Notes under the pieces: generated by a model | What the model saw: only the letters and a program-made list of their open reading frames with translations | Database searches by the model: none | Told to the model about the DNA's origin: nothing | Part shown: positions 2,769 to 15,843 of the stretch, piece after piece | How positions within the stretch are numbered: the stretch's first letter is position 1 | Layout of the letters: the number at the start of each line of letters is the position of its first letter | Made by a program: the position numbers and the translations under genes | Origin: an uncultured Moraxella sp. | GTDB lineage: Bacteria; Pseudomonadota; Gammaproteobacteria; Pseudomonadales; Moraxellaceae | Direction: 5' to 3' | NCBI RefSeq assembly: GCF_945873075.1 | Contig: NZ_CAMCBS010000009.1 | Span: forward strand, 16,730 to 80,729 | Length of the DNA stretch: 64,000 nucleotides

Positions 2769-3593
2769 ATGACAACTTTATTAAAAAAAATCAGCATCGC
2801 AAGCCTAATCGGACTATCGCTCACCACCCTGCCTGCGATGGCAAATGATGACACGCTTGGCACTTATGGCTTTGATGATGAAGAAGCTCCTGCCTGTGCC
2901 AGCACGCCACTACCAACCGGCGCAAGCTTTGCCGTCGTTTATCCTGACTGCGGTTATACCCAAGGGCTTGCACTCATCAAAAAAGACGACAAATACGGCT
3001 TTGTGGATGAATCAGGCAAGCTTGTTATCCCTGCTATTTACCAAGAAGCACATCCGTTTAGCGATAATTTGGCGCTCATCAAACAAGCGGACAAATACGG
3101 ATATATCGACAAATCAGGTAAAATCGCCATCAAGCCACAATATACCGACGCTTGGGGTTTTTGGGAAGGTCGTGCCAAGATTGAACAAAATGGCAAATAC
3201 GGCTTTATTGACACCACAGGCAAGATTGTCATTAAGCCTACCTACGCAATGACAGGTGACTGGTTCGAAGATGGCTTGGTGCTATTCAAGCAAGGTAACC
3301 AATACGGCTTTTTGGACAAATCGGGTAAAGTCGCCATCAAACCACAGTTTGACTCTGCCAAAGATTTTGCCGAAGGTCGTGCTGCGGTCAGCAAAAAAAC
3401 CGGCAAAAAAGATGCCGACGGTGAAGAGCTGCACCAATTTGGCTTTATTGACAAGACGGGCAAAGTCGTTATCCCAATCAAATATGACTTGGCGTCTGAC
3501 TTTGTCGAAGGTGCGGCATTCGTCATCGAAGGTGAGCAGGTGTATTTTATTGACAAAGACGGCAAGCCAACCAAAATGCCAAACTACAACTGA
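2769..3593 (+). CDS. Secreted WG-repeat protein
   Basis: A 274-residue protein of unknown function. The tracked ORF begins far upstream, but ATG 2769 is preferred because it opens a clear signal peptide (MTTLLKKISIASLIGLSL..., cleavage near AMA-ND), so the protein is probably periplasmic or exported. The mature part holds five or six WG repeats of the type KYGFVDESGKLVIP, KYGYIDKSGKIAIKP, KYGFIDTTGKIVIKP, QYGFLDKSGKVAIKP, each about 45 residues. These repeats are known as beta-strand modules without a single assigned function. Two conserved-looking Cys residues lie just after the signal peptide. It stands alone between glnD and ssrA, and no enzyme motif is visible. Confidence 0.85.
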   Translation: MTTLLKKISIASLIGLSLTTLPAMANDDTLGTYGFDDEEAPACASTPLPTGASFAVVYPDCGYTQGLALIKKDDKYGFVDESGKLVIPAIYQEAHPFSDNLALIKQADKYGYIDKSGKIAIKPQYTDAWGFWEGRAKIEQNGKYGFIDTTGKIVIKPTYAMTGDWFEDGLVLFKQGNQYGFLDKSGKVAIKPQFDSAKDFAEGRAAVSKKTGKKDADGEELHQFGFIDKTGKVVIPIKYDLASDFVEGAAFVIEGEQVYFIDKDGKPTKMPNYN

Positions 3594-3629
3594 TACATAA
3601 ATTGAGATACGGCAAGTCTGGCAAAATCA

Positions 3630-3658
3630 TTGAGTTTTTGTACAAGACTTGCTATAAT
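3630..3658 (+). promoter_or_regulatory. Sigma70-type promoter of ssrA
   Basis: TTGAGT, 17-bp spacer, TATAAT, ending 11 bases before the predicted tmRNA 5' end. Near-consensus, as expected for a stable RNA gene. Confidence 0.8.
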
Positions 3659-3669
3659 CAAAAAACTAT

Positions 3670-4028
3670 GGGGATGTTCTGGCTTCGACGCTGGTAATGA
3701 AACTCAATAGTGCATGTCAAGAGCGTGTGACTCTTGTAAATCAACATACATTTAAAATAGTCGCAAACGACGAAACTTACGCTCTAGCAGCCTAAGGGCA
3801 GCTTGGGACGGTGCAGATTGCCTTTGGTCTGGTCACTCTCCCCGAAGCGAACGCACAAAGGATAGCATCTGTTAGCGTTGCGATGATGGGTGCGAAACTT
3901 TTAGCAAATCGTCCAATCCATCCTGACTGTCGGTTCGGTGCGGATTAAAGCCATAGACAGATTCTAAACATGTAGAGCTATGGGCGTAGTGCTGGCGGAC
4001 GCGGGTTCAACTCCCGCCATCTCCACCA
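3670..4028 (+). ncRNA. ssrA: Transfer-messenger RNA (tmRNA)
   Basis: tmRNA rescues stalled ribosomes by acting first as alanyl-tRNA and then as a short mRNA that adds a degradation tag. The 5' end GGGGATGTTCTGGCTTCGAC and the 3' end GGTTCAACTCCCGCCATCTC followed by CACCA form the tRNA-like ends. The tag reading frame at 3763-3795 encodes ANDETYALAA followed by TAA, ending in the hydrophobic ALAA recognised by ClpXP-type proteases. The ~359-nt length is normal. The last 14 bases are also the attachment core of the following mobile element, and integration has kept the RNA gene intact while replacing everything downstream, including the terminator. Confidence 0.97.
4015..4028 (+). repeat. attL core of the ssrA-integrated element
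   Basis: CGCCATCTCCACCA, the 3' end of ssrA, recurs exactly at 14475-14488. The flanking bases differ on both sides, so the exact match is 14 bp. Confidence 0.9.
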
Positions 4029-4058
4029 TACATATAACCACACACCACCACACACGAT

Positions 4059-4097
4059 AAAAAACCCTAGATAAATCAAGCATCTAGGGTTTTTTTA
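4059..4097 (+). terminator. Element-supplied terminator for ssrA
   Basis: Stem AACCCTAGAT / ATCTAGGGTT with loop AAATCAAGC and a following run of T. It lies 30 bases after the ssrA CCA inside the element and replaces the native terminator now at 14496-14536. Confidence 0.85.
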
Positions 4098-4138
4098 TTG
4101 CCTTATATTGCCACCTATTACCCCCTATATTATAATCA

Positions 4139-4256
4139 TTTTTGTATCTCTATTTGTATCTCTTTATGTTCACAAAAATAGAGATACAAAACAGATTAGC
4201 CAAAACCCCAGTTTACTTTTCAGAGATACAAGTTAGCTAAATTGAGAGATACAAGA
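4139..4256. promoter_or_regulatory. Clustered TTTGTATCTCT repeats upstream of integrase (candidate arm-type or Xis sites)
   Basis: Two tandem copies of TTTGTATCTCT lie at 4141-4163. Three inverted relatives (AGAGATACAA type) follow near 4180, 4222 and 4246, the last touching the integrase start. The tandem pair is repeated exactly in the same orientation at the other end of the element (14389-14413), as arm-type integrase or excisionase sites often are. They could also mediate integrase autoregulation. Confidence 0.6.
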
Positions 4257-5492
4257 ATGAAAAGAACCGATATTAAAAAACGCCCCCTATCTGATACGGT
4301 TATTGCCAACCTAGAACCCGAAATGACAGAGTACAATGAAAAAGATAGCAAAGGTTTATATTTGTTCGTCAAACCCACTGGGGCGAAATCTTGGAAAATG
4401 CGTTATAAGGATAGTAAGGGCAAATGGCGTTGGACTGGGCTGGGTGCTTATCCTGCCGTTACTGGGGCAATGGCTAGAAAGCTGGTGCAAGAAAAATTAG
4501 TAGAATTGGCACTTGGTGCAGATGAATTGACCGCCAAGCCTGCACCGCCCACCGCCCAAACTTTTAAAAGTGTGGCTTTGGAATGGTACAATGAGCCCAA
4601 CATTCAAAAGCTGGATAATGGCACAAAATCCAAATATCTTAGCCTACTAGAAAAACACATATTCCCCACCATGGGCAAAAAAGCCATTAGCGATATATCA
4701 CGCCAAGTATGGCTTACCTTTTTTAAAAGGCTACAAGAAACGCCAAACCCCCAAACGGGCAAGCCCATCATAGAAACCGCAAACAGAGCTTTGCAGGTGT
4801 GTAGCCGTATTTATCGTTTTGCCCTTACCCATGAATTAGCAGGGGTACAGTCTAACCCTTTGGAACACTTGCACGAACGATTGGAAAAGCACGAACCCAA
4901 ACAGCTTGCCCATGTTAGCGAACAAGATTTACAAAAGCTATTATTGGATATTCAAACCATCCCCAGCGAAATCACACGCTTAGGGGTGCAATTGCTTAGC
5001 CATCTATTTTTACGCCCAAATGAAGTGTTGGATGGTGAATGGGCGGAAATTGATTTTGATAATGGCATTTGGGAAATCCCAGCGGAACGCATGAAAAAAC
5101 GACGCCCCCACCTTGTGCCACTATCCAAACAGGCACTTGCCCTATTACAGCAATTGCATAGCTTGACTGGCTTTGATACCCATCTATTCCCCAGCCGTGC
5201 CAAAGACCGTAAAAACGCCCACCAGCGTTTTAGAATGGCATTAAACCGCCTTGGCTATCTTGATGAACAAACCCTACACGGTTTCCGTCATATCGCTAGC
5301 ACCAAACTAAATAACTATACAGATGAAAACGGTATGAAATTTGATGGGCGTGTGATTGAGTTTGCATTAGCCCACAAGGTGCAAGGGGTGGCAGGCGTTT
5401 ATAACAAGGCGGAATATCTGCATGATAGAAAAATCATCAATCAATGGTATAGCGATTTTTTGGATAGCCTTGTACAAGCTAATGATGATTGA
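4257..5492 (+). CDS. P4-type tyrosine integrase
   Basis: A 411-residue site-specific recombinase, presumed to integrate and excise the element at the ssrA 3' end. The N-terminal DUF4102-type domain (LSDTVIANLEP, GLYLFVKPTGAKSW, GLGAYP) covers about residues 8-85. A SAM-like core-binding domain follows, and then the catalytic domain with Arg in the LRPNEV segment, HGFRH, a further His in LAHK, and the tyrosine nucleophile probably in GVYNKAEYL. ATG 4257 is chosen over the tracked upstream TTG because it matches the usual N-terminus and starts right after the repeat cluster. No downstream partner lies on this strand. Confidence 0.93.
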   Translation: MKRTDIKKRPLSDTVIANLEPEMTEYNEKDSKGLYLFVKPTGAKSWKMRYKDSKGKWRWTGLGAYPAVTGAMARKLVQEKLVELALGADELTAKPAPPTAQTFKSVALEWYNEPNIQKLDNGTKSKYLSLLEKHIFPTMGKKAISDISRQVWLTFFKRLQETPNPQTGKPIIETANRALQVCSRIYRFALTHELAGVQSNPLEHLHERLEKHEPKQLAHVSEQDLQKLLLDIQTIPSEITRLGVQLLSHLFLRPNEVLDGEWAEIDFDNGIWEIPAERMKKRRPHLVPLSKQALALLQQLHSLTGFDTHLFPSRAKDRKNAHQRFRMALNRLGYLDEQTLHGFRHIASTKLNNYTDENGMKFDGRVIEFALAHKVQGVAGVYNKAEYLHDRKIINQWYSDFLDSLVQANDD

Positions 5493-5731
5493 TTATAAAA
5501 AGTCATAGAATAGTCATAACATAGTCATAAAATGAATAAATCCGCCCATGATGCAACATAGGCGGATTGTTTTTGGGCTTATGCAGGCTAATAAATAATA
5601 ATATAAAATATATATAATATAGAATATCTTAATAATATTTCAGATATATATAATAAGGAAAGGGGAAATTAAAAAAGCATTTATCAAATAAAATAAATCG
5701 CCATAAATCCGCCATTTGGATGACAACCGCC

Positions 5732-5922
5732 CACGCCTGCCACAATGCCACCAATAGCATGATGGCTGGTGGTGCTGGCATAGTACTAGTTACTTGGTGA
5801 TGCCATTGCCCACACTGGTAGCGGTGGTGGCAATTGGTGGCAGTGATACCGCTGGCATGATATTGGCAGTTGCCCCCGTTGGTGGCATCATGGCAAGTTA
5901 TCCAGCCATTGCCCATTATTGG
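5732..5922 (+). repeat. Imperfect direct repeat, partner at 6285-6471
   Basis: Starts CACGCCTGCCACAATGCCAC and runs about 190 bp in parallel with 6285-6471 (offset about 553 at the left end), with scattered substitutions and small indels. It is the right half of the repeat unit without the GGGAAAA iterons. Confidence 0.75.
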
Positions 5923-6133
5923 CATTGGCGGTTATCCAGTGTTGGCATGGTGCTGGTGATTATCGCACCCGCCACATTTGGCAAGATACCAGCAACCGCC
6001 CACGCCTGCCAAGCCCAGCACCCAAAGGCAACCCCAGCAAACCTATCACCAGCAACCGCCCAGCCATTAAATTTAGCTTGTGTGCTCGGCGTGTCGGCAC
6101 ATAATCATATAAAGATATACCAGCACCACCCCA

Positions 6134-6324
6134 CCCACAACAACACAAAGTTATAAAAACTGGGAAAATGGGGAAAATGGGAAAATGACACCAGCAAAGC
6201 TATATATAGCAAGGCTTGCCCCGTTTTCCCCTATTTTAGGCAAATGGGAAAATGGGGGAAAATAAGGGGAAAATGGGTAGCTATCACGCCTGCCACAATG
6301 CCACCAATAGCATGATGGCTGGTG
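6134..6324 (+). repeat. Iteron-bearing repeat, copy A
   Basis: 191 bp matching 6593-6783 with about two substitutions, and matching in inverted orientation at 13571-13837. It contains six direct GGGAAAA words (three before and three after the centre), one inverted TTTTCCCC, and a perfect palindrome GCTATATATAGC at 6199-6210. The architecture looks like a replication origin or a protein-binding array. Confidence 0.85.
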
Positions 6325-6572
6325 GTGCTGGCAGTGCTGGTTACTTGGTGATGCCATTGCCTACACTGGTAGCGGTGCTGGCAATTGGTGGCGGTGATAC
6401 CGCTGGCATGATATTGGCAGTTGCCCACTGGTGGCATTAGGGCAAGTTATCCAGCCATTGCCCATTATTGGTAATGGCGGTCATTTTGACCGTCGTTATT
6501 ATACCGCTGGTTACTTGGTGATGGCTGGCGGTGCTGGTGATTGGTGGTGCTATCGCCTAAGCTGGTAGCATT

Positions 6573-6783
6573 GCTGGCTATCCAGTCATTAACCCACAAC
6601 AACACAAAGTTATAAAAACTGGGAAAATGGGGAAAATGGGAAAATGACACCAGCAAAGCTATATATAGCAAGGCTTGCCCCGTTTTCCCCTATTTTAGGC
6701 AAATGGGAAAATGGGGGAAAATAAGGGGAAAATGGGTAGCTATCACGCCTGCTACAATGCCACCAATGGCATGATGGCTGGTG
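6573..6783 (+). repeat. Iteron-bearing repeat, copy B
   Basis: Nearly identical to copy A over 6593-6783. On its left it extends with GCTGGCTATCCAGTCATTAA, which is shared with the inverted copy C but not with copy A. Confidence 0.85.
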
Positions 6784-6834
6784 TTTGGCTTGCTTGGTGA
6801 TGGCTGGTGGTGCTGGTGGTAGGCTATGCCAAAG

Positions 6835-6865
6835 AAAAAAGCCCCTGCAATGCAAAGGCTTTTTG
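6835..6865 (-). terminator. Terminator of the replication gene cluster
   Basis: On the minus strand, AAAGCCTTTGC pairs with GCAGGGGCTTT (including G-U pairs) and is followed by a T-run. It lies just after the DUF3987 gene stop. Confidence 0.7.
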
Positions 6866-6875
6866 GGCGGTAGGC

Positions 6876-8954
6876 TTAGGCGGTCAATAACTTTGGGTTA
6901 ATCTCAATAAATCTACAATCATCTTGATAGGCTAGGCGGATATGCTGTTTTTCTAGCAAATAATCTATCGCCAATTCAAAAACCGCCTTTTGTCTAAGTA
7001 CTTTTGGGCTAATGGTGCTTTGTACTTCTGAATAACCAAAGCTTGCTGTATTTCGCATCTTGGCACGCTTAACAAGCCATTCTATCAATAGTTCTGCATC
7101 CCCTTTGTTGCCATCTGTAATATCACAATATTTCAAGCGTTCTGCAATGGAAAAATCCACCAGCTTACTAGCATTGATGATATGTTCTTTGCTTACTGCC
7201 TTTTCGCCTTGGAATAATGCCAGCAGGCAAGCGATACGGGCGGTATTTTCGCCCATACGCCCAGCAAATGCAGGGATTTGGGCGTATGGTTCGCCAGTGC
7301 GTTGCTTGGTTTCTACATCCTGCATATAATCCGCCAAGGCTTGCTTTGCACTTTGGTCTTTAAATGGCATATTTACACGCTCTATAGGTTTATCAATCAG
7401 TAAATCCCTACATTTTTTATAATACTTGGTCAAATGCCAATCTTGGCTAGGGCTAGCGTTCATGCGGTCGGGCGTGTTGTATTGTCTGTACCCTTGGAAA
7501 CTCTTTGGGCAAGCCAATAACGCCCTAGGCAAAAAGCCTTGATTGATTAATACGGGGTCTGTCATGGCAGGTTCTAATATCACCCGTTGCCCCATAACAT
7601 CCAGCGTTAGGCGTGCATCATAGGCATTTGTTCTATCTTGCCCAGTTTTACCCCTTTGACTTCTAATTTTACTGACTGGGCTACCATCCCAAAGCTTGGT
7701 TAAGCTTGAAATGCTACTACCAGCGGTATCAGATTTCATGCTATACCCATTAAAAAATTGCCCAGCTTCATCCGTATTCCAATAAACATCCTTTTGTTCA
7801 TCCAAAATAAACTTATCCGTAACCGCCTCTATCGTGCCATCTGATACCATGTAAGTGTAGCTTTTTGGCTTTGGGTTGTTCGCTTTTTCTTTTGGTGGCT
7901 GGCGTTCCCATTCATTGAGTACTGCCAAATAGTTTAAATAGTTTTCTTTTTCCCATTCTGCCAATTCATGGTTAGCCAATTTGGTTGCCTGTGATTTGCC
8001 TTGACCGCTGGGAAATTCGGTGATTAAAAACAAGCTGGCAGGGATATGGGTGTTTAAAAATGGGGCGTTTGCCATACGCTGACCAATGGCAGATAACACG
8101 CCCAGCACACTTTGCCCAGCTACCGCCAAAGGGACTTGTGCATAATAGGCGATTTGTGTGATTACATCCGCCAATTCACTGCCAAAGCTATCAAGCGGAT
8201 AATCATTTTCTTTGTGGTACTTGTCATCCAGTGGTAACGGTTCGCCCCATGGTTCATCCTGTTTTGGTACAGGCGTGGCGGTTGCTGGCTGGTTGTTTGG
8301 TGCTGTTTTGGCGGTGCTGGTAGCGTGTAAAAGCTGTTGCAAGCGGTCATTATCCAGCATTGGCAAAGCCTGTAATTTGGCGTGCATGGTGGCAATGTCG
8401 CACCCTTGCATATAATCGACAATATCGCCTTTTTCTACCAAGCCCAGCTTATCTACATCTACAATACGGATTGTGGGCGGTGGTGATAGTGCTTGCAAGG
8501 CTTGAATAAAGGTATCCAGCCATGAAATGCCAGCGGTATCATTATCACGCCATAATACACATTCTTTACCTGCCAAGGGCTGTAAATCATGGGCGGTAAT
8601 GGTATTGCTACCGCCTGTTGTGGTGGCGATATAGCCCAAATTGTCCATTAAATCCGCTTTTTGTTCACCTTCAAAAATCCATACGGATTGTGATTGGCTA
8701 AGCTTATGCAGGTAATACAAGGGTTTTTGGTTGGGCGTAAAGACTGGTTCGCCCATTTTCCACTGATTATCCACACCAAAAAAGAATGGGCGGATATGTT
8801 TTTTGCCTTGAGCGTTTTTTAGGCGTGCTTTGGCGTAAATCGTGTTCCCCTGTGCATCGGTGTACTGGTGAATGGTGATGGCATCATAGCCTTGATTTAT
8901 CAGTTTGCCAAATAAACCTTTGGCAATGGGGGTTAATTCGTTTGGATTGTACAT
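6876..8954 (-). CDS. TOPRIM/DUF3987 replication protein (primase-helicase-like)
   Basis: A 692-residue protein likely to replicate the element. The N-terminal ~200 residues resemble a TOPRIM-like primase domain (VWIFEGEQKADLMDNLGY near residue 92, then VLWRDNDTAG with the acidic DND). The middle and C-terminal part resembles the DUF3987 family of mobile-element P-loop proteins, with a Walker A-type FPSGQGKS near residue 317. The zinc-binding part of a primase is missing here but is encoded by the gene immediately upstream (9019-9603), so the primase seems split in two. The C-terminal ~60 residues look like a winged-helix DNA-binding region. DUF3987 is a recognition by eye. Confidence 0.8.
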   Translation of the reverse strand: MYNPNELTPIAKGLFGKLINQGYDAITIHQYTDAQGNTIYAKARLKNAQGKKHIRPFFFGVDNQWKMGEPVFTPNQKPLYYLHKLSQSQSVWIFEGEQKADLMDNLGYIATTTGGSNTITAHDLQPLAGKECVLWRDNDTAGISWLDTFIQALQALSPPPTIRIVDVDKLGLVEKGDIVDYMQGCDIATMHAKLQALPMLDNDRLQQLLHATSTAKTAPNNQPATATPVPKQDEPWGEPLPLDDKYHKENDYPLDSFGSELADVITQIAYYAQVPLAVAGQSVLGVLSAIGQRMANAPFLNTHIPASLFLITEFPSGQGKSQATKLANHELAEWEKENYLNYLAVLNEWERQPPKEKANNPKPKSYTYMVSDGTIEAVTDKFILDEQKDVYWNTDEAGQFFNGYSMKSDTAGSSISSLTKLWDGSPVSKIRSQRGKTGQDRTNAYDARLTLDVMGQRVILEPAMTDPVLINQGFLPRALLACPKSFQGYRQYNTPDRMNASPSQDWHLTKYYKKCRDLLIDKPIERVNMPFKDQSAKQALADYMQDVETKQRTGEPYAQIPAFAGRMGENTARIACLLALFQGEKAVSKEHIINASKLVDFSIAERLKYCDITDGNKGDAELLIEWLVKRAKMRNTASFGYSEVQSTISPKVLRQKAVFELAIDYLLEKQHIRLAYQDDCRFIEINPKLLTA

Positions 8955-9018
8955 TTGTTGTTATTCCTAGTCATTCATCATCATAAATAAAGGGGTTGTT
9001 TGGCTGGTGCTGGCGTGA

Positions 9019-9603
9019 TTAGCGGTATAAATCCAAGTCTTTGCACGCCTGCACAAAATCCACCCCAAAGCGTGCCATATAAAAACCCACCATATCGCCA
9101 CTAGCACCGCATACATGGCAGATATAGCCCCCATGGTCTGTATTGATAGATAAGCTGGGGTGTTTATCACCGTGAAATGGGCAAAGTGCAGAACGCCACA
9201 CGCCACCGCCTTTAAGCGTTAGCCCATAAGTATGATAAAAATCTATCGGGCTTGGCAGGCGTGATAAATCCGCTCTTTGGCGTTGTTTTTGCTGGGGCTT
9301 GGCTTTGTGCTGGCGGTTTGCTTGGCTGGGTGCTTGGCGTGGCGGTTGCTGATTGCTACCCATGCCAAAGCTTGCCTTGTTTGCCCCTGTATTTGCCCCA
9401 TTTTGGGCGGTTTTTTGGGGGTTTTGGGTGTGGCTGGTGGTTTTGCCTTGCCATGTCATCCTGTGGGCGTGGCGTGGCTGATGGTGCGTGTGGCGGTAGT
9501 GGTGTGCTGGGTGGCGTTTGCCAATACCGCCCGTTGTACGCTTGGCAAATGGGGCGGATTGCCCCATTGCTGGATTGGTGGTGGCGTTAGTGTCTGTTGT
9601 CAT
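9019..9603 (-). CDS. CHC2 zinc-finger primase fragment with low-complexity N-terminus
   Basis: A 194-residue protein whose last ~80 residues are a CHC2-type zinc finger as in DnaG-like primases (ALCPFHGDKHPSLSI followed by YICHVCGASGDMVGFYM), providing the Cys-His-Cys-Cys ligands for template recognition. The first ~110 residues are rich in His, Gln, Asn and Ala and look disordered. Its ATG overlaps the stop of the upstream gene (ATGA), and the DUF3987 gene follows after 64 bases, so the two halves are probably made together. The 79-residue ORF in another frame here is a shadow. Confidence 0.82.
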   Translation of the reverse strand: MTTDTNATTNPAMGQSAPFAKRTTGGIGKRHPAHHYRHTHHQPRHAHRMTWQGKTTSHTQNPQKTAQNGANTGANKASFGMGSNQQPPRQAPSQANRQHKAKPQQKQRQRADLSRLPSPIDFYHTYGLTLKGGGVWRSALCPFHGDKHPSLSINTDHGGYICHVCGASGDMVGFYMARFGVDFVQACKDLDLYR

Positions 9604-10004
9604 GATTGCCCCTTATGGCTTGTGATAAGTGATATTGCTTGCTTTGCGACAATCTCACGGCTTAGCGTTTCGCAAAAGTCCTTGTAATGGCGTGTGCCTT
9701 TTAGGTGTTCATTTAGGCTTTGTGCATCACCAAACGCCAAATCCGCCAAATATTCGCCCTTGTTTATCACGCTTAGGGCTAGGGCAAATTTTTGTTTGGG
9801 TTCAAGCTGGGCGGAAATGTTGCCATCTGCCAGCACCTTGACCAGCTCTATCATGTTTTCCAATCCACCGCTAAGAAATAGCAAAAAACCCACCATATCC
9901 GCAAAATCGCACGCATTTATTTCAATGGTTGTAGGCGATTGCGATAATGCGTTAATTTCGGTGATACTGCTGGTGGTGTGGATGGTATGTTGTGTACTTT
10001 TCAT
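9600..10004 (-). CDS. Unknown element protein (134 aa)
   Basis: Not recognised. ATG 10004 is chosen over the tracked 10025 because AGGA lies just upstream of it. The protein is acidic to neutral, with a hydrophobic helix-like segment (FADMVGFLLFLSGGLENMIELV) that could be a buried helix rather than a membrane span. Its stop overlaps the start of the CHC2 primase gene, suggesting translational coupling and a role in the replication module. Confidence 0.65.
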   Translation of the reverse strand: MKSTQHTIHTTSSITEINALSQSPTTIEINACDFADMVGFLLFLSGGLENMIELVKVLADGNISAQLEPKQKFALALSVINKGEYLADLAFGDAQSLNEHLKGTRHYKDFCETLSREIVAKQAISLITSHKGQS

Positions 10005-10113
10005 AAATAATCCTAATTTGTTCATTCAATGCTGTTATACAAAAGCCAAATTTTGGGTAATAAAGCCCTAAGCGGTGCTATTCTTGGAATAAACCGCCTA
10101 ATTTGGCGTATGC

Positions 10114-10419
10114 TTAGTGTGGCACTTGCTCAATGCTAATGGGTGTTGCTGGATAGTCTTTGGCGATAAGTTCCGCCATGCTGACGGCTTGGCGTTGGCT
10201 ATCAAAAAGCCGTTTAATGCCAAGCTTTGGGGCGGTTAAGATATAGCCAGCTTGTTTGCTAGGGTTTAGGCTTTTAACTAGGCGGGTGATTTTTGATAAT
10301 CTGATATCCGCCTTTGGATTAGCCTGTTGTAGCTGGTAATACCGCTTGATGGCATCATATTCTTGGCTAAACACTTGCAAAATATCCAATTCTTTGCAGT
10401 AAATTTGAAAATGCACCAT
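10114..10419 (-). CDS. Unknown element protein (101 aa)
   Basis: Not recognised. It is small, basic and mostly helical, with a charged N-terminal half (EYDAIKRYYQLQQANPKADI) and no Cys or metal motif. It starts one base after the stop of the preceding ORF (10421), so it is probably translated by coupling. A 109-base gap separates it from the 134-aa gene downstream. Confidence 0.6.
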   Translation of the reverse strand: MVHFQIYCKELDILQVFSQEYDAIKRYYQLQQANPKADIRLSKITRLVKSLNPSKQAGYILTAPKLGIKRLFDSQRQAVSMAELIAKDYPATPISIEQVPH

Positions 10420-10420
10420 C

Positions 10421-10564
10421 TTATACCCCCATAACCGCTAAAATAGCGACAACAAGGCAAGCAATAGGCAAGCCAAGCACAAAGCCCAAAACAAGGCTTT
10501 CTACTGGGGTAAAAATGGAAAATTTTTGAATGGTGGTTGAAATGGTATGGGTGATTGCATTCAT
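10421..10564 (-). CDS. Small single-span membrane protein (47 aa), internal start
   Basis: This is the C-terminal part of the longer Ash-like frame, but ATG 10564 is preceded by AGGAG at good spacing, so it may be the main translated product. It has a short polar N-terminus (MNAITHTISTTIQKF) and one strong hydrophobic segment (LVLGFVLGLPIACLVVAILAV), giving a probable inner-membrane microprotein. The function is unknown. Confidence 0.55.
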   Translation of the reverse strand: MNAITHTISTTIQKFSIFTPVESLVLGFVLGLPIACLVVAILAVMGV

Positions 10565-10906
10565 GGCGAACGCTCCTATGTGTTTAGTTAGTGTTGCCAC
10601 CCATAATAAAGGGTGGCGGGGCTGAACTACCGCACATAAACGGCTGGGGCTATTTCCTAAAAAAGGTATTGTATTTACCCCCATCACCCCGCCATAACTG
10701 GTGATACTGTATGTATCTTGTAATGACGGAATATTTACGCTTGTGGGGCTGTTATCGCTAACAGTAGGCGTAAAAATAGCCAATGAATGACGGCTTGGCA
10801 ATGCCGTTATGTGTTTAGTAGTGGCGTTATTATCGCTATGCCAAGCAAAAAATTCAAGCGATTTTTGCAAATATTGCGATAATTGCGAAAAAATAGTAAA
10901 TTGCAT
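10421..10906 (-). CDS. Ash-like ORF (161 aa) of P4-type satellites
   Basis: The segment SYGGVMGVNTIPFLGNSPS followed by QPRHP resembles, from memory, the Ash/Icd-like ORFs found between the regulator and replication genes of P4-like elements. In those elements this region can act largely through RNA (leader and antisense immunity RNA), so the ORF may be partly or wholly non-coding. A hairpin (CCACCC / GGGTGG, about 10597-10616) lies inside it, upstream of the internal start at 10564. The family assignment needs a profile search. Confidence 0.45.
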   Translation of the reverse strand: MQFTIFSQLSQYLQKSLEFFAWHSDNNATTKHITALPSRHSLAIFTPTVSDNSPTSVNIPSLQDTYSITSYGGVMGVNTIPFLGNSPSRLCAVVQPRHPLLWVATLTKHIGAFAMNAITHTISTTIQKFSIFTPVESLVLGFVLGLPIACLVVAILAVMGV

Positions 10907-10937
10907 GATATAATTACCTTGTTGTTTTTCATCATCA

Positions 10938-10966
10938 CCCCTTGCCTAGTGTAAGGGGCTTTTTTA
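10938..10966 (+). terminator. Plus-strand terminator-like hairpin upstream of the Ash-like ORF
   Basis: CCCCTT, loop GCCTAGTGT, AAGGGG, then CTTTTTT. The T-run is on the plus strand, opposite to all nearby genes. It would end a transcript antisense to the Ash-like region, or act as a leader hairpin on the minus strand. Confidence 0.55.
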
Positions 10967-11080
10967 TTGGCGGTTGCGGTGATAAGTGTGCATTAGGGCG
11001 GTTTTTGTGCGTTTTTTTACCCTGTTGCAGGCGTGGGCGGTGCTTTGTACCAGTTCACGCCTGCACCGCTTAAACTCGCA

Positions 11081-11305
11081 CTAAAAGGCAGTGGGATAGC
11101 CATGTTTGACGCACATATTGCGACAATAAATTACCACTCCCACAAATGATAATTCTGCTTTTTCGCCATGGCGTATTAGCTTATTCAAGTAGGCGTTTTG
11201 GTTTAGGCGTCTGCCTTGGCGGTTGTAGGGTTCTACTTGCCACATGGTTTGTCGGTGGGTTTTGGCTTGTGGCGATAAAGTGGATTGTTGGTTTGAGTTT
11301 GTCAT
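11081..11305 (-). CDS. Unknown element protein (74 aa)
   Basis: Not recognised. It is basic and rich in Gln, Asn and Arg, with two Cys residues near the C-terminus (YCRNMCVKHG). It follows the winged-helix-like gene after 9 bases and probably shares a transcript with it and alpA. Downstream, 174 bases lack genes and contain the plus-strand hairpin. Confidence 0.55.
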   Translation of the reverse strand: MTNSNQQSTLSPQAKTHRQTMWQVEPYNRQGRRLNQNAYLNKLIRHGEKAELSFVGVVIYCRNMCVKHGYPTAF

Positions 11306-11314
11306 GATTAATCC

Positions 11315-11635
11315 TTATTGGTCATTGGTTGGATTGGTGGAATGGCTGGTATCCCATGGGCGGTTAGGGCTGTTTTGATGCCGTTTGATATAGTCCGCAT
11401 CTAGGTAGTAGCGTTTTAGGCGTTTGCCATTGCTGGTAAAGAAATAATCGCCATGAATAGGTACGCCGTAAATGCGTCTAAGTTCGCCCAGTCGCTGGGT
11501 AGTGCATAGACACCCAAACAACTGCACACCATCAAGGGCGGTTAGGCTGTTGCCCTTGAGTAGATACTCAAACATGCGCTTGGTGGTATCTGATAATGAT
11601 TTTTTGTGCTTTTGGGTCAATGGTGCTTGTTTCAT
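11315..11635 (-). CDS. Small helix-turn-helix-like protein (106 aa)
   Basis: Probable DNA-binding protein. The central part (KRMFEYLLKGNSLTALDGVQ followed by TTQRLGELRRIYGVPI) fits the winged-helix fold common in phage and island proteins: a helix, a turn near LTALDGVQL, a recognition helix TTQRLGEL, then a wing (HGDYFFTSNGKRLKRYYL). Its ATG overlaps the alpA stop (ATGA), so the two are coupled. A regulatory or replication-accessory role is inferred from position. Confidence 0.65.
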   Translation of the reverse strand: MKQAPLTQKHKKSLSDTTKRMFEYLLKGNSLTALDGVQLFGCLCTTQRLGELRRIYGVPIHGDYFFTSNGKRLKRYYLDADYIKRHQNSPNRPWDTSHSTNPTNDQ

Positions 11636-11832
11636 GCGTTTTCCCCTTGTGCTTTGTGCCAGTCAATCAATGCTTGATAGTCAAAATAAACAGATGATTG
11701 CATTTTGTTACCCGTTTTGTAGGGTCTAGGAAATGTTGGGTCATTCTCTACCAGCGTTCTAAGCTTTTCACGCCCAATTGCCAGTAGTTCGCACGCTTGT
11801 TTTTTGGTTACTCTGATAGGTTTTAAGGTCAT
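11632..11832 (-). CDS. AlpA-family transcriptional regulator
   Basis: A 66-residue protein with an excisionase-like winged helix: KKQACELLAIGREKLRTLV is the helix-turn-helix, then DPTFPRPYKTGNKMQSSVYF is the wing. AlpA proteins in P4-like elements activate or repress integrase and island genes and can serve as excision factors. No other excisionase candidate is seen, so it is the best candidate for Xis function here. It is the first gene after a strong terminator, so it should have its own promoter in 11833-11910. Confidence 0.85.
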   Translation of the reverse strand: MTLKPIRVTKKQACELLAIGREKLRTLVENDPTFPRPYKTGNKMQSSVYFDYQALIDWHKAQGENA

Positions 11833-11910
11833 ATTTCCCCCATTTGGTGATATTGGTTAAAGTCATGCCATGCTTGGCTGTGTGGGGATATGATAAAAAA
11901 TGAAAAGCAT

Positions 11911-11950
11911 AAAAAACCCTAGTTAGGATTTTGTTCATCCTAACTAGGGT
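11911..11950 (-). terminator. Strong terminator after the coiled-coil gene
   Basis: Perfect 14-bp stem ACCCTAGTTAGGAT / ATCCTAACTAGGGT, followed on the minus strand by a run of T. It separates the 11970-12698 gene from alpA. Confidence 0.85.
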
Positions 11951-11969
11951 TCATGGCGTGGCAGGGTAG

Positions 11970-12698
11970 TTACTTGCTCATTTCGTGGGCTATCTTTAAC
12001 CATGTGGCAACGGTGTCATCACTAAGGGTATTGCCTTGTAATTCCATGTTGGTGCGTATTTTTCTATTTGCTTCACCGTATGGCTGGGTTATATCCAATC
12101 CTAGCAATTCAACGGCTAAGGCTGAAATAATTTTACCTGCATTGTTTGCGGTTCTTGTAGGCAACTCTTTATCATTCGAATTAGTGGCAGGCTTGGCGGT
12201 TGCTTGTAACTGGTCAATTTGGGTTTGTAGTTCGTTAATTTTCTGCTCTTTTTGGTTTAGCTGGTCTTTTAGGCGGGCTATTTCATCATTTTTTTCTTGC
12301 AACTCATTTGATGATTTTGGGCGGTATTCAATGGCGGTTAATGGCTTTTCTGACAAACCAAACGCCATTTCCATTACAGTAATAAGACGGTTTTTTAGCT
12401 CATTATTTTCATTTTTTAAGTCTTTTATTTCGTTTTTTAGTTCTTTTTTGCTTTTGCCCGTGTTGCTAGGCGATTGTGCGGGTCGGGTTTCGCCTGTTTC
12501 ATGGTCAATTACAACGGGGGTAGGTTTGGCAGGAATAGCGTTTTCGCCAAATGGGTTTGCAAATGCTTTGGCTATACGCCCCAAATGTTCAATTTGTTCA
12601 AACATAGGGGCGGCAAGGCTCTCTAACCGCTCTTGAGATGCACGCAATCCTTGCATAAGATTGGTTAAGGGGGGTTTCTTGTTTGGGTTATCACTCAT
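11970..12698 (-). CDS. Coiled-coil protein of the element (242 aa)
   Basis: Function unknown. ATG 12698 (AGGTG upstream) is preferred to the tracked GTG three codons earlier. The middle region is a long charged coiled coil in two blocks, KKELKNEIKDLKNENNELKN and ELQEKNDEIARLKDQLNQKE, up to about residue 165. The C-terminal ~55 residues (KIISALAVELLGLDI, then ELQGNTLSDDTVATWLKIA) resemble a small domain seen at the C-terminus of many phage and plasmid accessory proteins, possibly DNA-binding. It is monocistronic with its own terminator. Confidence 0.7.
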   Translation of the reverse strand: MSDNPNKKPPLTNLMQGLRASQERLESLAAPMFEQIEHLGRIAKAFANPFGENAIPAKPTPVVIDHETGETRPAQSPSNTGKSKKELKNEIKDLKNENNELKNRLITVMEMAFGLSEKPLTAIEYRPKSSNELQEKNDEIARLKDQLNQKEQKINELQTQIDQLQATAKPATNSNDKELPTRTANNAGKIISALAVELLGLDITQPYGEANRKIRTNMELQGNTLSDDTVATWLKIAHEMSK

Positions 12699-12801
12699 AT
12701 TCCACACCTAACCACACCAAATATTTATAGGGTGCATGGCGTTGGCGTTATGGTGTGGATGGTAACGCCGTTCGGTAGCTACTCCTAGCCATGCAAAAAG
12801 G

Positions 12802-13266
12802 TTAAATTTGGCTAACTGGATAAACCAGCCTTAAGGGATTGGACACTAAACGAATAAAACCCAACTTGGCGTAATATTCTGCCAGCGTTTCGGTCTTGGC
12901 ATCTATCGCCACAAATGCCACGCCTGCCATTGTGCTAATACTTTTGGCTTGGTGCATGGCATGGCTAATTAGCTGATTGGCTAAGCCTTTGCCCTGCTCA
13001 CCGATTGCCACCCCCAAACGCCCAATCAATACCGCTGGTATCTGCTTGGGATAGCCTTTGATAGCTCCTTGGGTGTTATCTAGGCTTATGGCTGATAATG
13101 TATAAAATGCTTGTATGGTTACCCCGTCTGTCAAGGCGTGGACTTGTGCAATGCCCTTTTTGCAGTGCTGACTTGCTAGGTGTTGTAAATAGTGGTTAAT
13201 ACTGGCATTGCCACAATCAAAGCTTTGTTTGTCGTGCTGTTTGTTTAATGGCTGTATCTTAAGCAT
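12802..13266 (-). CDS. GNAT-family toxin (TacT/AtaT-like acetyltransferase)
   Basis: A 154-residue N-acetyltransferase likely to be the toxin of a type II pair. Toxins of this family acetylate aminoacyl-tRNA and stop translation. Visible features: N-terminal FDCGNASINHYLQHLASQ typical of these toxins, central VLIGRLGVAIGEQGKGLANQL (acetyl-CoA loop), and C-terminal EYYAKLGF with the conserved Tyr. The start overlaps the antitoxin stop by 8 bases; the tracked upstream ATG four codons earlier is less likely. The loop reads EQGKGLA instead of the more usual RGKGLG, so activity is not certain. Confidence 0.85.
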   Translation of the reverse strand: MLKIQPLNKQHDKQSFDCGNASINHYLQHLASQHCKKGIAQVHALTDGVTIQAFYTLSAISLDNTQGAIKGYPKQIPAVLIGRLGVAIGEQGKGLANQLISHAMHQAKSISTMAGVAFVAIDAKTETLAEYYAKLGFIRLVSNPLRLVYPVSQI

Positions 13267-13504
13267 GATTAGCCCCATGCAATGCTAATAACTCACGCAT
13301 GGCAGGGCTTGGCGGTGGTGGATTATCCAATAGTTCTTGTAATAACGCCCCATCTTGTACCCCAATGACAAAGCTTGTCGGGTCTGCATCTAACTGGGGT
13401 TCATCAAAAAAGGTGCGTTGTAACAACTCTGCCACGCTAACCCCTTGGGCTTGTGCCTTGGCGGTGATGGCTTGTTCTATTTGTGGTGGTAAGTCAATTA
13501 TCAT
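13259..13504 (-). CDS. RHH-like antitoxin of the GNAT toxin
   Basis: An 81-residue protein; ATG 13504 has AAGGAC upstream, while the tracked ORF starts 27 codons earlier without support. The N-terminus (MIIDLPPQIEQAITAKAQAQ, then SVAELLQRTF) fits a ribbon-helix-helix DNA-binding domain. The C-terminal half is acidic and proline-rich (NPPPPSPAMRELL), suited to wrapping the toxin. The overlap with the toxin start indicates coupling, and autorepression of the pair is expected from the family. Confidence 0.75.
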   Translation of the reverse strand: MIIDLPPQIEQAITAKAQAQGVSVAELLQRTFFDEPQLDADPTSFVIGVQDGALLQELLDNPPPPSPAMRELLALHGANHA

Positions 13505-13570
13505 AGGCTTGTCCTTATTGTGTTTTTTTTGGATTGTGTTTGTGGGTATTATATCATAGTTATTGCCATA

Positions 13571-13857
13571 TATCACCGCCACCAATTGCCAGCACCGCTA
13601 CCAGTGTAGGCAATGGCATCACCAAGTAACCAGCACTGCCAGCACCACCAGCCATCATGCTATTGGTGGCATTGTGGCAGGCGTGATAGCTACCCATTTT
13701 CCCCTTATTTTCCCCCATTTTCCCATTTGCCTAAAATAGGGGAAAACGGGGCAAGCCTTGCTATATATAGCTTTGCTGGTGTCATTTTCCCATTTTCCCC
13801 ATTTTCCCAGTTTTTTATAACTTTGTGTTGTTGTGGGTTAATGACTGGATAGCCAGC
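13571..13857 (-). repeat. Iteron-bearing repeat, copy C (inverted)
   Basis: The reverse complement matches copy A (6134-6399) almost base for base with a one-base indel in an A/T run. On the other side it continues with the extra ~20 bp found only in copy B, so it spans the full unit. It lies 66 bases upstream of the antitoxin start and may also carry the promoter of the toxin-antitoxin pair. Confidence 0.85.
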
Positions 13858-14388
13858 ACCATGCCAGCGGTATCAATACGCCTTATCCATCCCACCTAGT
13901 ATTACATAGACCAGCCGACACAGCCAAGCAAAGCTTAACAGGGTTAAAATAAGCAATTGTGTTATAAGATGCACATTAACCGCCAAGCCCTGCCATACTT
14001 GCTATAAAATCATGTTTGCTTGGTGGGATGGCTGGGGGGTGGTGAAAAAGTTTCAGACAGCACCCCCAGCGGACACCACGCCCCATCCCGTGCATAAAAA
14101 AATTTCCATTTTCCGAAATTTTTTCCGCTTTTCTCCAAAGATACCCCAAACAGGCGGAAATTATTGTATAAATCCCATCCCCATGATAAGATTGGTAATA
14201 CATGGGATAAATTAGGCGGAAAAACATTCAGACCGCCAAAGCCTATAGGGGTGGTTTCAAAGTGAAATTGTCTATCGCTAGAAACCCAGACCCGCAATAT
14301 TTTTTTCACACGGTCAAAACCCCATAGGGGGTATATCCGTTACAAAACTAGGATTTTTTGGGGCAATTGCCAAATCATAGCACCTTGT
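13858..14388. other. Non-coding right end of the element
   Basis: About 530 bases without a convincing gene. On the minus strand there is an inverted repeat GGCGG...CCGCC (about 14211-14243), and an AT-rich stretch with AAATTTCC and GGAAATT words lies near 14098-14125. The 99-aa minus ORF here has no start signal or family. A structured regulatory RNA is possible, by analogy to P4 immunity RNA, but not shown. Confidence 0.45.
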
Positions 14389-14413
14389 TTTTTGTATCTC
14401 TATTTGTATCTCT
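14389..14413 (+). repeat. Right-end copy of the TTTGTATCTCT tandem repeat
   Basis: A 25-bp exact direct repeat of 4139-4163, 62 bases inside attR. Candidate arm-type recombination site. Confidence 0.75.
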
Positions 14414-14474
14414 ACTAGGTACATTTTTTGATAACTGTTTATAAATCAATAAGTTATGATATTTGTTCAAGTAA

Positions 14475-14488
14475 CGCCATCTCCACCA
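14475..14488 (+). repeat. attR core
   Basis: CGCCATCTCCACCA, identical to the ssrA 3' end. The rest of ssrA is absent here. Confidence 0.9.
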
Positions 14489-14495
14489 ATTTTCC

Positions 14496-14536
14496 AATAA
14501 AAATCCTAAGTAAATCAGTTACTTAGGATTTTTATT
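14496..14536. terminator. Displaced native ssrA terminator, now terminating codA only
   Basis: Perfect 18-bp inverted repeat (AATAAAAATCCTAAGTAA and its complement) with loop ATCAG, with T-rich tails in both directions. It would lie 8 bases after ssrA in an element-free chromosome and also ends codA on the opposite strand. Confidence 0.85.
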
Positions 14537-14574
14537 GTTTATGCACAAGTGATTATTTGACGGTTTACTTCCTA

Positions 14575-15843
14575 TTATTCACTCAGAATCTTGCAATACT
14601 CTAGCTGTCTTTGCATAATCACCTTGCCATGTCTGACGCTCAGCATCACCTTGGCTTGATTGGCAAGTGCATCATAGTCATCTTTGGCATTTAGGATAAT
14701 AAAGTTGGCAGGCTTACCAATTTCAATGCCATAATCATTGTGAACATTGAGTGTTTTAGCACCATTGACCGATACAAAATCCAAACATCTGGACAAATCT
14801 TTATAGCCTAGCATATGGCAAATATGCAGCCCTGCATCCAAAATTCTCATGATATTGCCATTGCCCACTGGATACCAAGGGTCACGGATTGAATCTTGGG
14901 CAAAGCATACATTCATTCCCGCTGCATCAATCTCAGGCACACGGGTCAAGCCACGGCGTTTTGGATAACCATCATATCGCCCTTGCAAATGAATACTCTC
15001 GGTCGGGCAACAAATGAAGTTGATTTTTGATTGCTTAAGCAGGCGAAACAACTTAAAGCAATAAGCATTGTCATATGAGCCCATAGCGGTCGTATGACTA
15101 GCTGTTGTTCGCTCGCCCATACCACGCTGCAACACTTCATCCGCCAACACTTCCAAAAATCTTGAGCTTGGGTCATCAGTCTCATCGCAGTGCACATCGA
15201 TGAGCTTGTCATATTTATCCGCCAAATCCACCAAGAATTTGACGGATGATACACCTTTATCACGAGTATATTCAAAATGCGGAATACCGCCGACGACATC
15301 AGCACCCATCTGCACCGCTTTTTCGAGCAAATGTCTGCCATTATCAAATGATTCAATGCCTTCTTGGGGAAATGCCACAATCTGAATATCCATCAAATCC
15401 TTAACTTCATCTTTGATTTCAAGCAATGCCTGCATACCAATCATGGCAGGGTCTGTGGTGTCAGCATGAGTACGAACATATTGGATACCGTGACTAGCAA
15501 GCATCTCAACCACTTGTCTGGCTCGGCGCTTGGTATCTTCAATTTGATCGGTTTGAGATTTTTTAACCCATGCTTTGCGCTGACCCCAACGCTCAATCCC
15601 TTCAAATAATGTACCTGTCATATTCCACTCAGGTTCACCCGCTGTCAGCACATAGTCCAAGTGGATATGCGGTTCAACCAGTGGTGTCATGAGTAGGTTT
15701 TCATCGGCATCAATAAGCTGTTCATTTGGCTCAAGAGCAAGCTTACTCTCTTGTGGCGTGATGGCGGTAAATCTGCCATGCTCATATTCAACACTAAACA
15801 GTTCTGTTTGCTGACGCAGTCGTGCATTAATAATTTTCATCAT
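14575..15843 (-). CDS. codA: Cytosine deaminase-like amidohydrolase
   Basis: Hydrolyses cytosine (or a related amino-azine) to uracil and ammonia in the cytoplasm. The 422-residue protein aligns along its whole length with E. coli CodA: EPHIHLD metal site, GTLFEGIERW, FPQEG, IDVHCDE with the catalytic Glu, TASHTTAM, NIHLQGR-like SIHLQGRYD, and DPWYP. The E. coli GHDD motif reads AQDS here: the catalytic Asp is kept, but the neighbouring His and second Asp are Gln and Ser, so substrate preference may differ. ATG 15843 has GGAG upstream, so it is preferred over the tracked start. It lies 31 bases after codB in an operon. Confidence 0.88.
   Translation of the reverse strand: MMKIINARLRQQTELFSVEYEHGRFTAITPQESKLALEPNEQLIDADENLLMTPLVEPHIHLDYVLTAGEPEWNMTGTLFEGIERWGQRKAWVKKSQTDQIEDTKRRARQVVEMLASHGIQYVRTHADTTDPAMIGMQALLEIKDEVKDLMDIQIVAFPQEGIESFDNGRHLLEKAVQMGADVVGGIPHFEYTRDKGVSSVKFLVDLADKYDKLIDVHCDETDDPSSRFLEVLADEVLQRGMGERTTASHTTAMGSYDNAYCFKLFRLLKQSKINFICCPTESIHLQGRYDGYPKRRGLTRVPEIDAAGMNVCFAQDSIRDPWYPVGNGNIMRILDAGLHICHMLGYKDLSRCLDFVSVNGAKTLNVHNDYGIEIGKPANFIILNAKDDYDALANQAKVMLSVRHGKVIMQRQLEYCKILSE

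Follow-up and report, generated by a model that had tools for sequence, protein, structure and literature searches.

What do three near-identical repeats, each built of short iterons around a palindrome, do on both sides of the replication genes of a small genomic island in Moraxella? We analysed a 64-kb stretch of Moraxella DNA (hereafter, the window) by comparison with related loci. Our reading, to which we give a probability of roughly 0.84, is that a PICI-like satellite carries its replication origin in triplicate, as these repeats (named A, B, and C), and that they would be bound by the helicase encoded at 6876-8954 through its winged helix.

A PICI-like island at tmRNA

From its sequence, the island is best read as a PICI-like phage satellite integrated in the Moraxella chromosome at the tmRNA gene. 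The features needed for the argument are as follows.

3670-4028: tmRNA, whose 3′ end (4016-4028) is the attL core
4016..4028, + strand: attL core GCCATCTCCACCA, equal to the tmRNA 3′ end
4242..5492, + strand: tyrosine integrase with an Arm-DNA-bind_3 domain
6133..6324, + strand: putative origin copy A, iterons +++-+++ of GGGAAAAT, palindrome at 6199-6210
6592..6783, + strand: putative origin copy B, directly 3′ of the DUF3987 gene, where PICI origins canonically lie
6876..8954, - strand: predicted initiator helicase, Toprim + DUF3987 + winged helix
9019..9603, - strand: CHC2 zinc-ribbon half of a DnaG-type primase, as a separate protein
11632..11832, - strand: small AlpA/excisionase-like HTH protein, with weak matches to phrog_7338, phrog_668, and phrog_66
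12802..13278, - strand: GNAT acetyltransferase, second operon gene behind copy C
13259..13504, - strand: small protein upstream of the GNAT gene, its start about 190 nt from the copy C iterons
13571..13858, - strand: putative origin copy C, inverted relative to A and B and upstream of the first leftward-operon gene
14476..14488, + strand: attR core GCCATCTCCACCA

The positions of the two att cores give the island a length of about 10.46 kb. As in PICIs, an integrase is combined with a specific att site, here the tmRNA, and the arm-like sequence TTTTTGTATCTCTATTTGTATCTCT occurs at both island ends, near 4139 and again near 14390. The leftward operon comprises, in order, the small protein, the GNAT acetyltransferase, a coiled-coil protein, the AlpA-like protein, several unknowns, the CHC2 protein, and the Toprim-DUF3987 helicase, whose gene ends at 6876. 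The AlpA-like protein shares 97% amino acid identity with its counterpart in L156, an IMG/VR contig that carries a close relative of the island. The 13259-13504 protein has no family match but is 85% identical at the amino acid level in another locus (L022), and its position and sequence would fit an antitoxin-like protein.

The gene slot behind the distal origin varies, from the small protein and GNAT gene (window 12802-13504 and M. cuniculi) to an ATPase and another ORF (L156:2133-4366), and is possibly a cargo site. In L023 and L156, related islands and prophage lysis and tail genes share one att site in a tandem arrangement; these adjoining prophages can only be suggested as candidate helpers. 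The last 280 nt of one M. cuniculi contig (L149, G003:C5) hold a tmRNA 3′ fragment and the arm sequences of the island left end, joined straight to chromosomal genes, possibly as a deletion remnant or through a second att event.

Three copies of one repeat

Copies A and B are direct repeats of 192 nt each, 99% identical, and are placed between the 3′ ends of the helicase and integrase genes. Positions 6155-6399 of A are the reverse complement of 13571-13815 of C, with 100% identity over 245 nt; C matches A at 99-100% across the same stretch, and the similarity between B and C extends to 13858. The initial annotation, made from the sequence alone, had described A and B as direct and C as inverted across the replication genes, with six direct words arranged three and three and one inverted word. 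Both descriptions were borne out: a word scan allowing one mismatch finds seven ATTTTCCC sites in A, and likewise in B, in the pattern +++-+++. The copies are thus real, but the repeated unit is longer than was claimed. Indeed, the duplication extends into the sequence between the copies (5732-5935 and 6285-6484), and A and B therefore look like a tandem duplication with a unit of about 459 nt.

A perfect palindrome had also been assigned to each copy. Each copy has one exact GCTATATATAGC, and these three are the only ones in the window, where shuffles predict 0.00. The palindrome is not strictly kept, as M. cuniculi has GCTAGATATATC instead; conservation around it is strongest in CAAAGCTA-ATAT--CAAGGCTT and in the iterons. 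In its own genome (2.09 Mb), the repeat is not scattered but confined to A, B, and C and a 40-nt piece at about 5732-5771 of the window. An Rfam scan of 3500-15000 matched the tmRNA alone, so no known RNA family covers the repeats. Exact scans of viral contigs found the iteron 26-mer in one contig, the palindrome core in one, and the M. bovoculi-type origin in none.

An AT-rich spacer, as in PICI origins, found no support in the window, where the spacer between the iteron groups is 55% AT compared with 56% for the island; among relatives, the spacer reaches 79% in L090 and 82% in L096, and many others are not AT-rich. An inner motif, AAGGCTTAC/CAAGGCTT, lies in the origin spacers (e.g., window 6187-6244) and is common to origins with different iteron words. 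The exact AAGGCTTAC is present in 9 of 48 origins/loci, with about 0.02 expected per locus, and no known host-factor site could be established for it.

Iterons behind DUF3987 genes across the family

DUF3987 proteins have so far been only predicted helicases (PMC5862659). Relatives of the island helicase were found with an alignment query, a search with a single-protein query having found none. The family-wide sample comprised 48 DUF3987 loci, most from other Moraxellaceae. With a cluster defined as five or more identical 7-mers in a span of 180 nt, the first 300 nt past the helicase stop codon contain an iteron cluster in 34 of 46 loci, whereas only 36 of 2787 other 300-nt bins do (1.3%). Homologous elements therefore carry iterons of their own, although several loci (L068, L072, L083, L084, L086, and L089) have no clear cluster at the threshold used. 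The iteron words vary among elements and include TGCCTAAA, TGCTTAAA, GCTAAAGT, GGGAAAGT, and TGACTAAA, among others, and the iterons often form two opposed arrays within about 220 nt. PICI origins are described with the same plan, directly 3′ of the initiator gene (rep) and with their iterons in two sets (PMC6092414).

Two side observations concern loci with additional replication features. In L058, six GCTAAAG-type iterons lie directly behind the integrase, some 5.8 kb upstream of the stop codon of the helicase gene, and the helicase-side iterons are of the GTGAAA type, another class. The Psychrobacter plasmids pA52P5 and pA37P2 (L056 and L057) are circular and encode RepM, an integrase, and a DUF3987 protein whose gene has its own iterons; each is apparently a satellite-type replicon fused to a RepM plasmid.

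A match between iterons and helicase

The 6876-8954 helicase consists of a Toprim domain (about aa 88-200), a DUF3987 AAA+ domain with an MCM-like fold (aa 273-605), and a C-terminal winged helix (aa 617-692) with its recognition segment at about aa 639-662. The C-terminal 75 or so residues are confidently predicted as a winged helix (pLDDT 90), and Foldseek pairs this domain with winged helices, each match being weak on its own (best E 0.02). For the AAA+ part, the top PDB matches are all MCM, with E 3e-5 but a TM of about 0.3, and the helicase profile matched no PDB chain by sequence.

Across 34 dereplicated loci, the similarity of the iteron sets tracks the similarity of the recognition segment (aa 639-662), with a partial Mantel rank correlation of 0.465 (0/2000 permutations) after control for similarity of the helicase core (aa 250-430); the safeguard of this permutation test, in place of a full phylogeny model, is the helicase-core control block, which gives -0.005 (997/2000 permutations). 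When aligned, PKPM pairs with TGCCTAAA, PNPM with TGCTTAAA, and AQS..PK.LR with GGGAAAGT-type words, the last pairing occurring in loci whose cores share only about 35% identity. This covariation of iteron words and winged-helix segment makes it very probable that the DUF3987 protein binds the iterons, and we regard it as the strongest evidence that this protein would read them. The initial proposal that the DUF3987 protein binds the repeats and that they act as origins is well supported by the position behind the helicase gene, the covariation, and the predicted C-terminal winged helix. Neither of the two observations named beforehand as refuting it was made, as homologous elements do have iterons and the chromosome has no scattered copies of the repeat.

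We propose that a helper phage would induce the island, that the winged helix of the helicase would bind the GGGAAAAT iterons, and that the helicase would melt the spacer between the iteron groups and load itself. The helicase and the CHC2/Toprim primase pair would then start replication of the excised circle. Copy B would occupy the ancestral position, directly behind the helicase gene, copy A would derive from the tandem duplication, and copy C, which is inverted, lies where the replication operon has its 5′ end. Of this scheme, comparison directly shows the position, covariation, and duplication. Recombination among the copies would keep them identical and could flip the operon with respect to the integrase.

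The inverted distal copy

Of the loci examined, only the window, M. cuniculi, M. oculi, M. bovoculi, and G010 have a whole inverted origin at the far end of the operon. The identity of the distal copy is 99% in M. cuniculi, 93% in M. oculi and M. bovoculi, and 99% in G010, which has three copies. As M. oculi, M. bovoculi, and G010 form one lineage with the word ACTTAGC, these are two lineages and not five independent cases. Moraxella elements with both ends assembled carry the extra inverted copy, in two lineages with different iteron words, a count that leaves out G011 (Moraxella, cut by its contig) and M. caprae (a helicase pseudogene without iterons).

The M. cuniculi (G003) helicase is 79% identical to that of the window, and the same repeat lies at both ends of the same gene cluster, where contigs C38 and C37 begin or end within repeat copies. 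Its two copies are 99% identical to each other over 105 nt and 84-85% identical to the window copies. The flanks diverge beyond this core, which indicates that copies are homogenised within an element, and this appears to hold in two lineages. The initial annotation had attributed the near-identity of the copies to recent conversion or functional constraint; both probably apply. G010 closely mirrors the window, with a tandem pair behind the helicase at a spacing of 451 nt (459 in the window) and one inverted copy about 9 kb away. As G010 is assembled in only three contigs, the inverted duplication itself is independent of the mis-joining caveat discussed below. The M. oculi and M. bovoculi elements have a single copy flanked by direct repeats, which are what is left of a tandem like that of G010.

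What the distal copy does can be read in more than one way. Copy C lies directly upstream of the first operon gene in the window and in M. cuniculi, and a matching copy is found there in the M. bovoculi-type elements. It is possible, if tentatively so, that C is regulatory and that the initiator bound in front of the operon represses its own transcription or handcuffs the origins, as in iteron plasmids. However, instead of an operator subset, the distal copy comprises the entire origin and is kept at 88-99% identity with the other copy. A two-site replicon of the P4 type seems more doubtful. P4 has two separated iteron-bearing sites, ori and crr, one itself with direct repeats, and crr is needed for replication. 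By analogy, B (with A) would be the origin and C a crr-like second site in cis, with the initiator binding both, both being needed, and the DNA looping between them. Two separated iteron sites are indeed kept in two Moraxella lineages with different iteron words, and tandem direct copies with a distant copy resemble crr and ori. However, in about 40 relatives outside Moraxella, the sole site is behind the helicase gene, so a second site is no basic requirement of the DUF3987 initiator family, and the proteins scanned include no alpha-type match.

Orientation of the operon

In nearly all homologues, the integrase lies upstream of the helicase in the same direction, and the unidirectional transcription typical of PICIs is seen in L156 and the M. 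bovoculi-type elements. In the window, by contrast, the integrase is on the + strand and the operon on the - strand, so that they face each other. L156, whose integrase is 92% identical to that of the window, has the order integrase, origin, origin, and operon running the way of the integrase; its orientation is thus opposite to that of the window, and an origin copy forms the junction. As the window operon opposes its integrase whereas L156 and nearly all homologues are co-directional, the inverted origins probably allow inversion of the operon, with the serious caveat that the window and L156 are apparently drafts in which mis-joining at repeats of 150-245 nt is possible. M. cuniculi is outside this comparison, its contigs ending inside repeats, and no close integrase was found in it.

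These orientations bear on a further explanation, namely, that the inverted origins are kept for the sake of recombination in the replicating circle. The opposite operon orientations in the window and L156 and the homogenised copies would favor such a role, and inverted repeats with double-rolling-circle replication are described as recombinogenic in chloroplast and HSV-1 systems (PMC3147054). However, the orientation isomers rest on draft assemblies, and all three M. bovoculi-type elements share the same orientation. We consider this role unlikely, as we do the fuller scheme in which flipping of the operon by origin-origin recombination also turns theta into double-rolling-circle replication and amplifies concatemers for packaging. 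If true, this would make the element an invertible replicon in a phage satellite, with an effect comparable to that of the 2-micron plasmid or of herpesvirus inverted repeats.

That the repeats are a mobile or selfish (MITE-like) repeat or a packaging site and not an origin is very improbable despite a 91.5% copy in the tail region of a prophage, Mcat24; the MITE reading was rejected because the copies in the own genome are confined to the island, and the family-wide position behind the helicase gene despite different words and the covariation with the recognition segment also argue against it. In Moraxella phage Mcat24 (KR093648; L151:11328-12210), this origin copy, accompanied by fragments, sits in the tail-gene region between inverted copies of a 173-nt phage sequence (98.8%). 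Nothing else of the island matched in the stretch compared, and the copy may be an insertion or an assembly fault.

Comparison with known systems

Among known replicons, the PICI/SaPI origin, and not P4, is the design nearest to that of the island. The initial annotation had drawn on P4, and the likeness stands as far as the presence of two separated iteron-bearing cis sites, one holding direct repeats. It is an analogy only: the layout is that of PICI/SaPI, the second site is absent outside Moraxella, and Pfam, PHROGs, and NCBIfam scans of the main proteins gave no match to the P4 alpha primase-helicase or to P4 marker genes.

The Vibrio PICMI satellites are also small int-AlpA-DUF3987 elements, but they are located at fis with a fis regulator (PMC10803314), whereas the window island is at tmRNA and no Fis regulator matched among the scanned window proteins. 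The word “iteron” is absent from the main text of the PICMI paper (PMC10803314). A functional parallel is offered by the self-loading helicases SCCmec Cch2 and SaPI Rep, which bind iterons directly downstream of their own genes through a C-terminal domain, as predicted here (PMC7581432). They differ in type, as Cch2 and SaPI5 Rep are D5/Primase-Cterm proteins and SaPIbov1 Rep is a DUF927 protein (PMC7581432), and the helicase here is a DUF3987 protein. For this widespread mobile-element family, our comparison indicates a likely origin and a likely origin-binding domain, and winged-helix residues can be read against iteron bases in a way open to swap tests. Why some satellites use two sites also becomes directly testable.

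With PICIs and SaPIs (PMC6092414), the island shares an origin that directly follows the initiator gene on its 3′ side, a pair of short-iteron groups flanking a spacer, an initiator helicase with a C-terminal DNA-binding domain (predicted here), and a small int-bearing island with a dedicated att site. It differs in its initiator, Toprim and DUF3987 with a separate CHC2 protein, in a window spacer that is not AT-rich, in an operon that faces the integrase, and in having two or three origin copies, of which one is inverted and lies at the opposite end of the operon. Seen beside PICI/SaPI, the Moraxella elements suggest that satellites can multiply and invert an origin around its operon while recombination maintains the identity of the copies.
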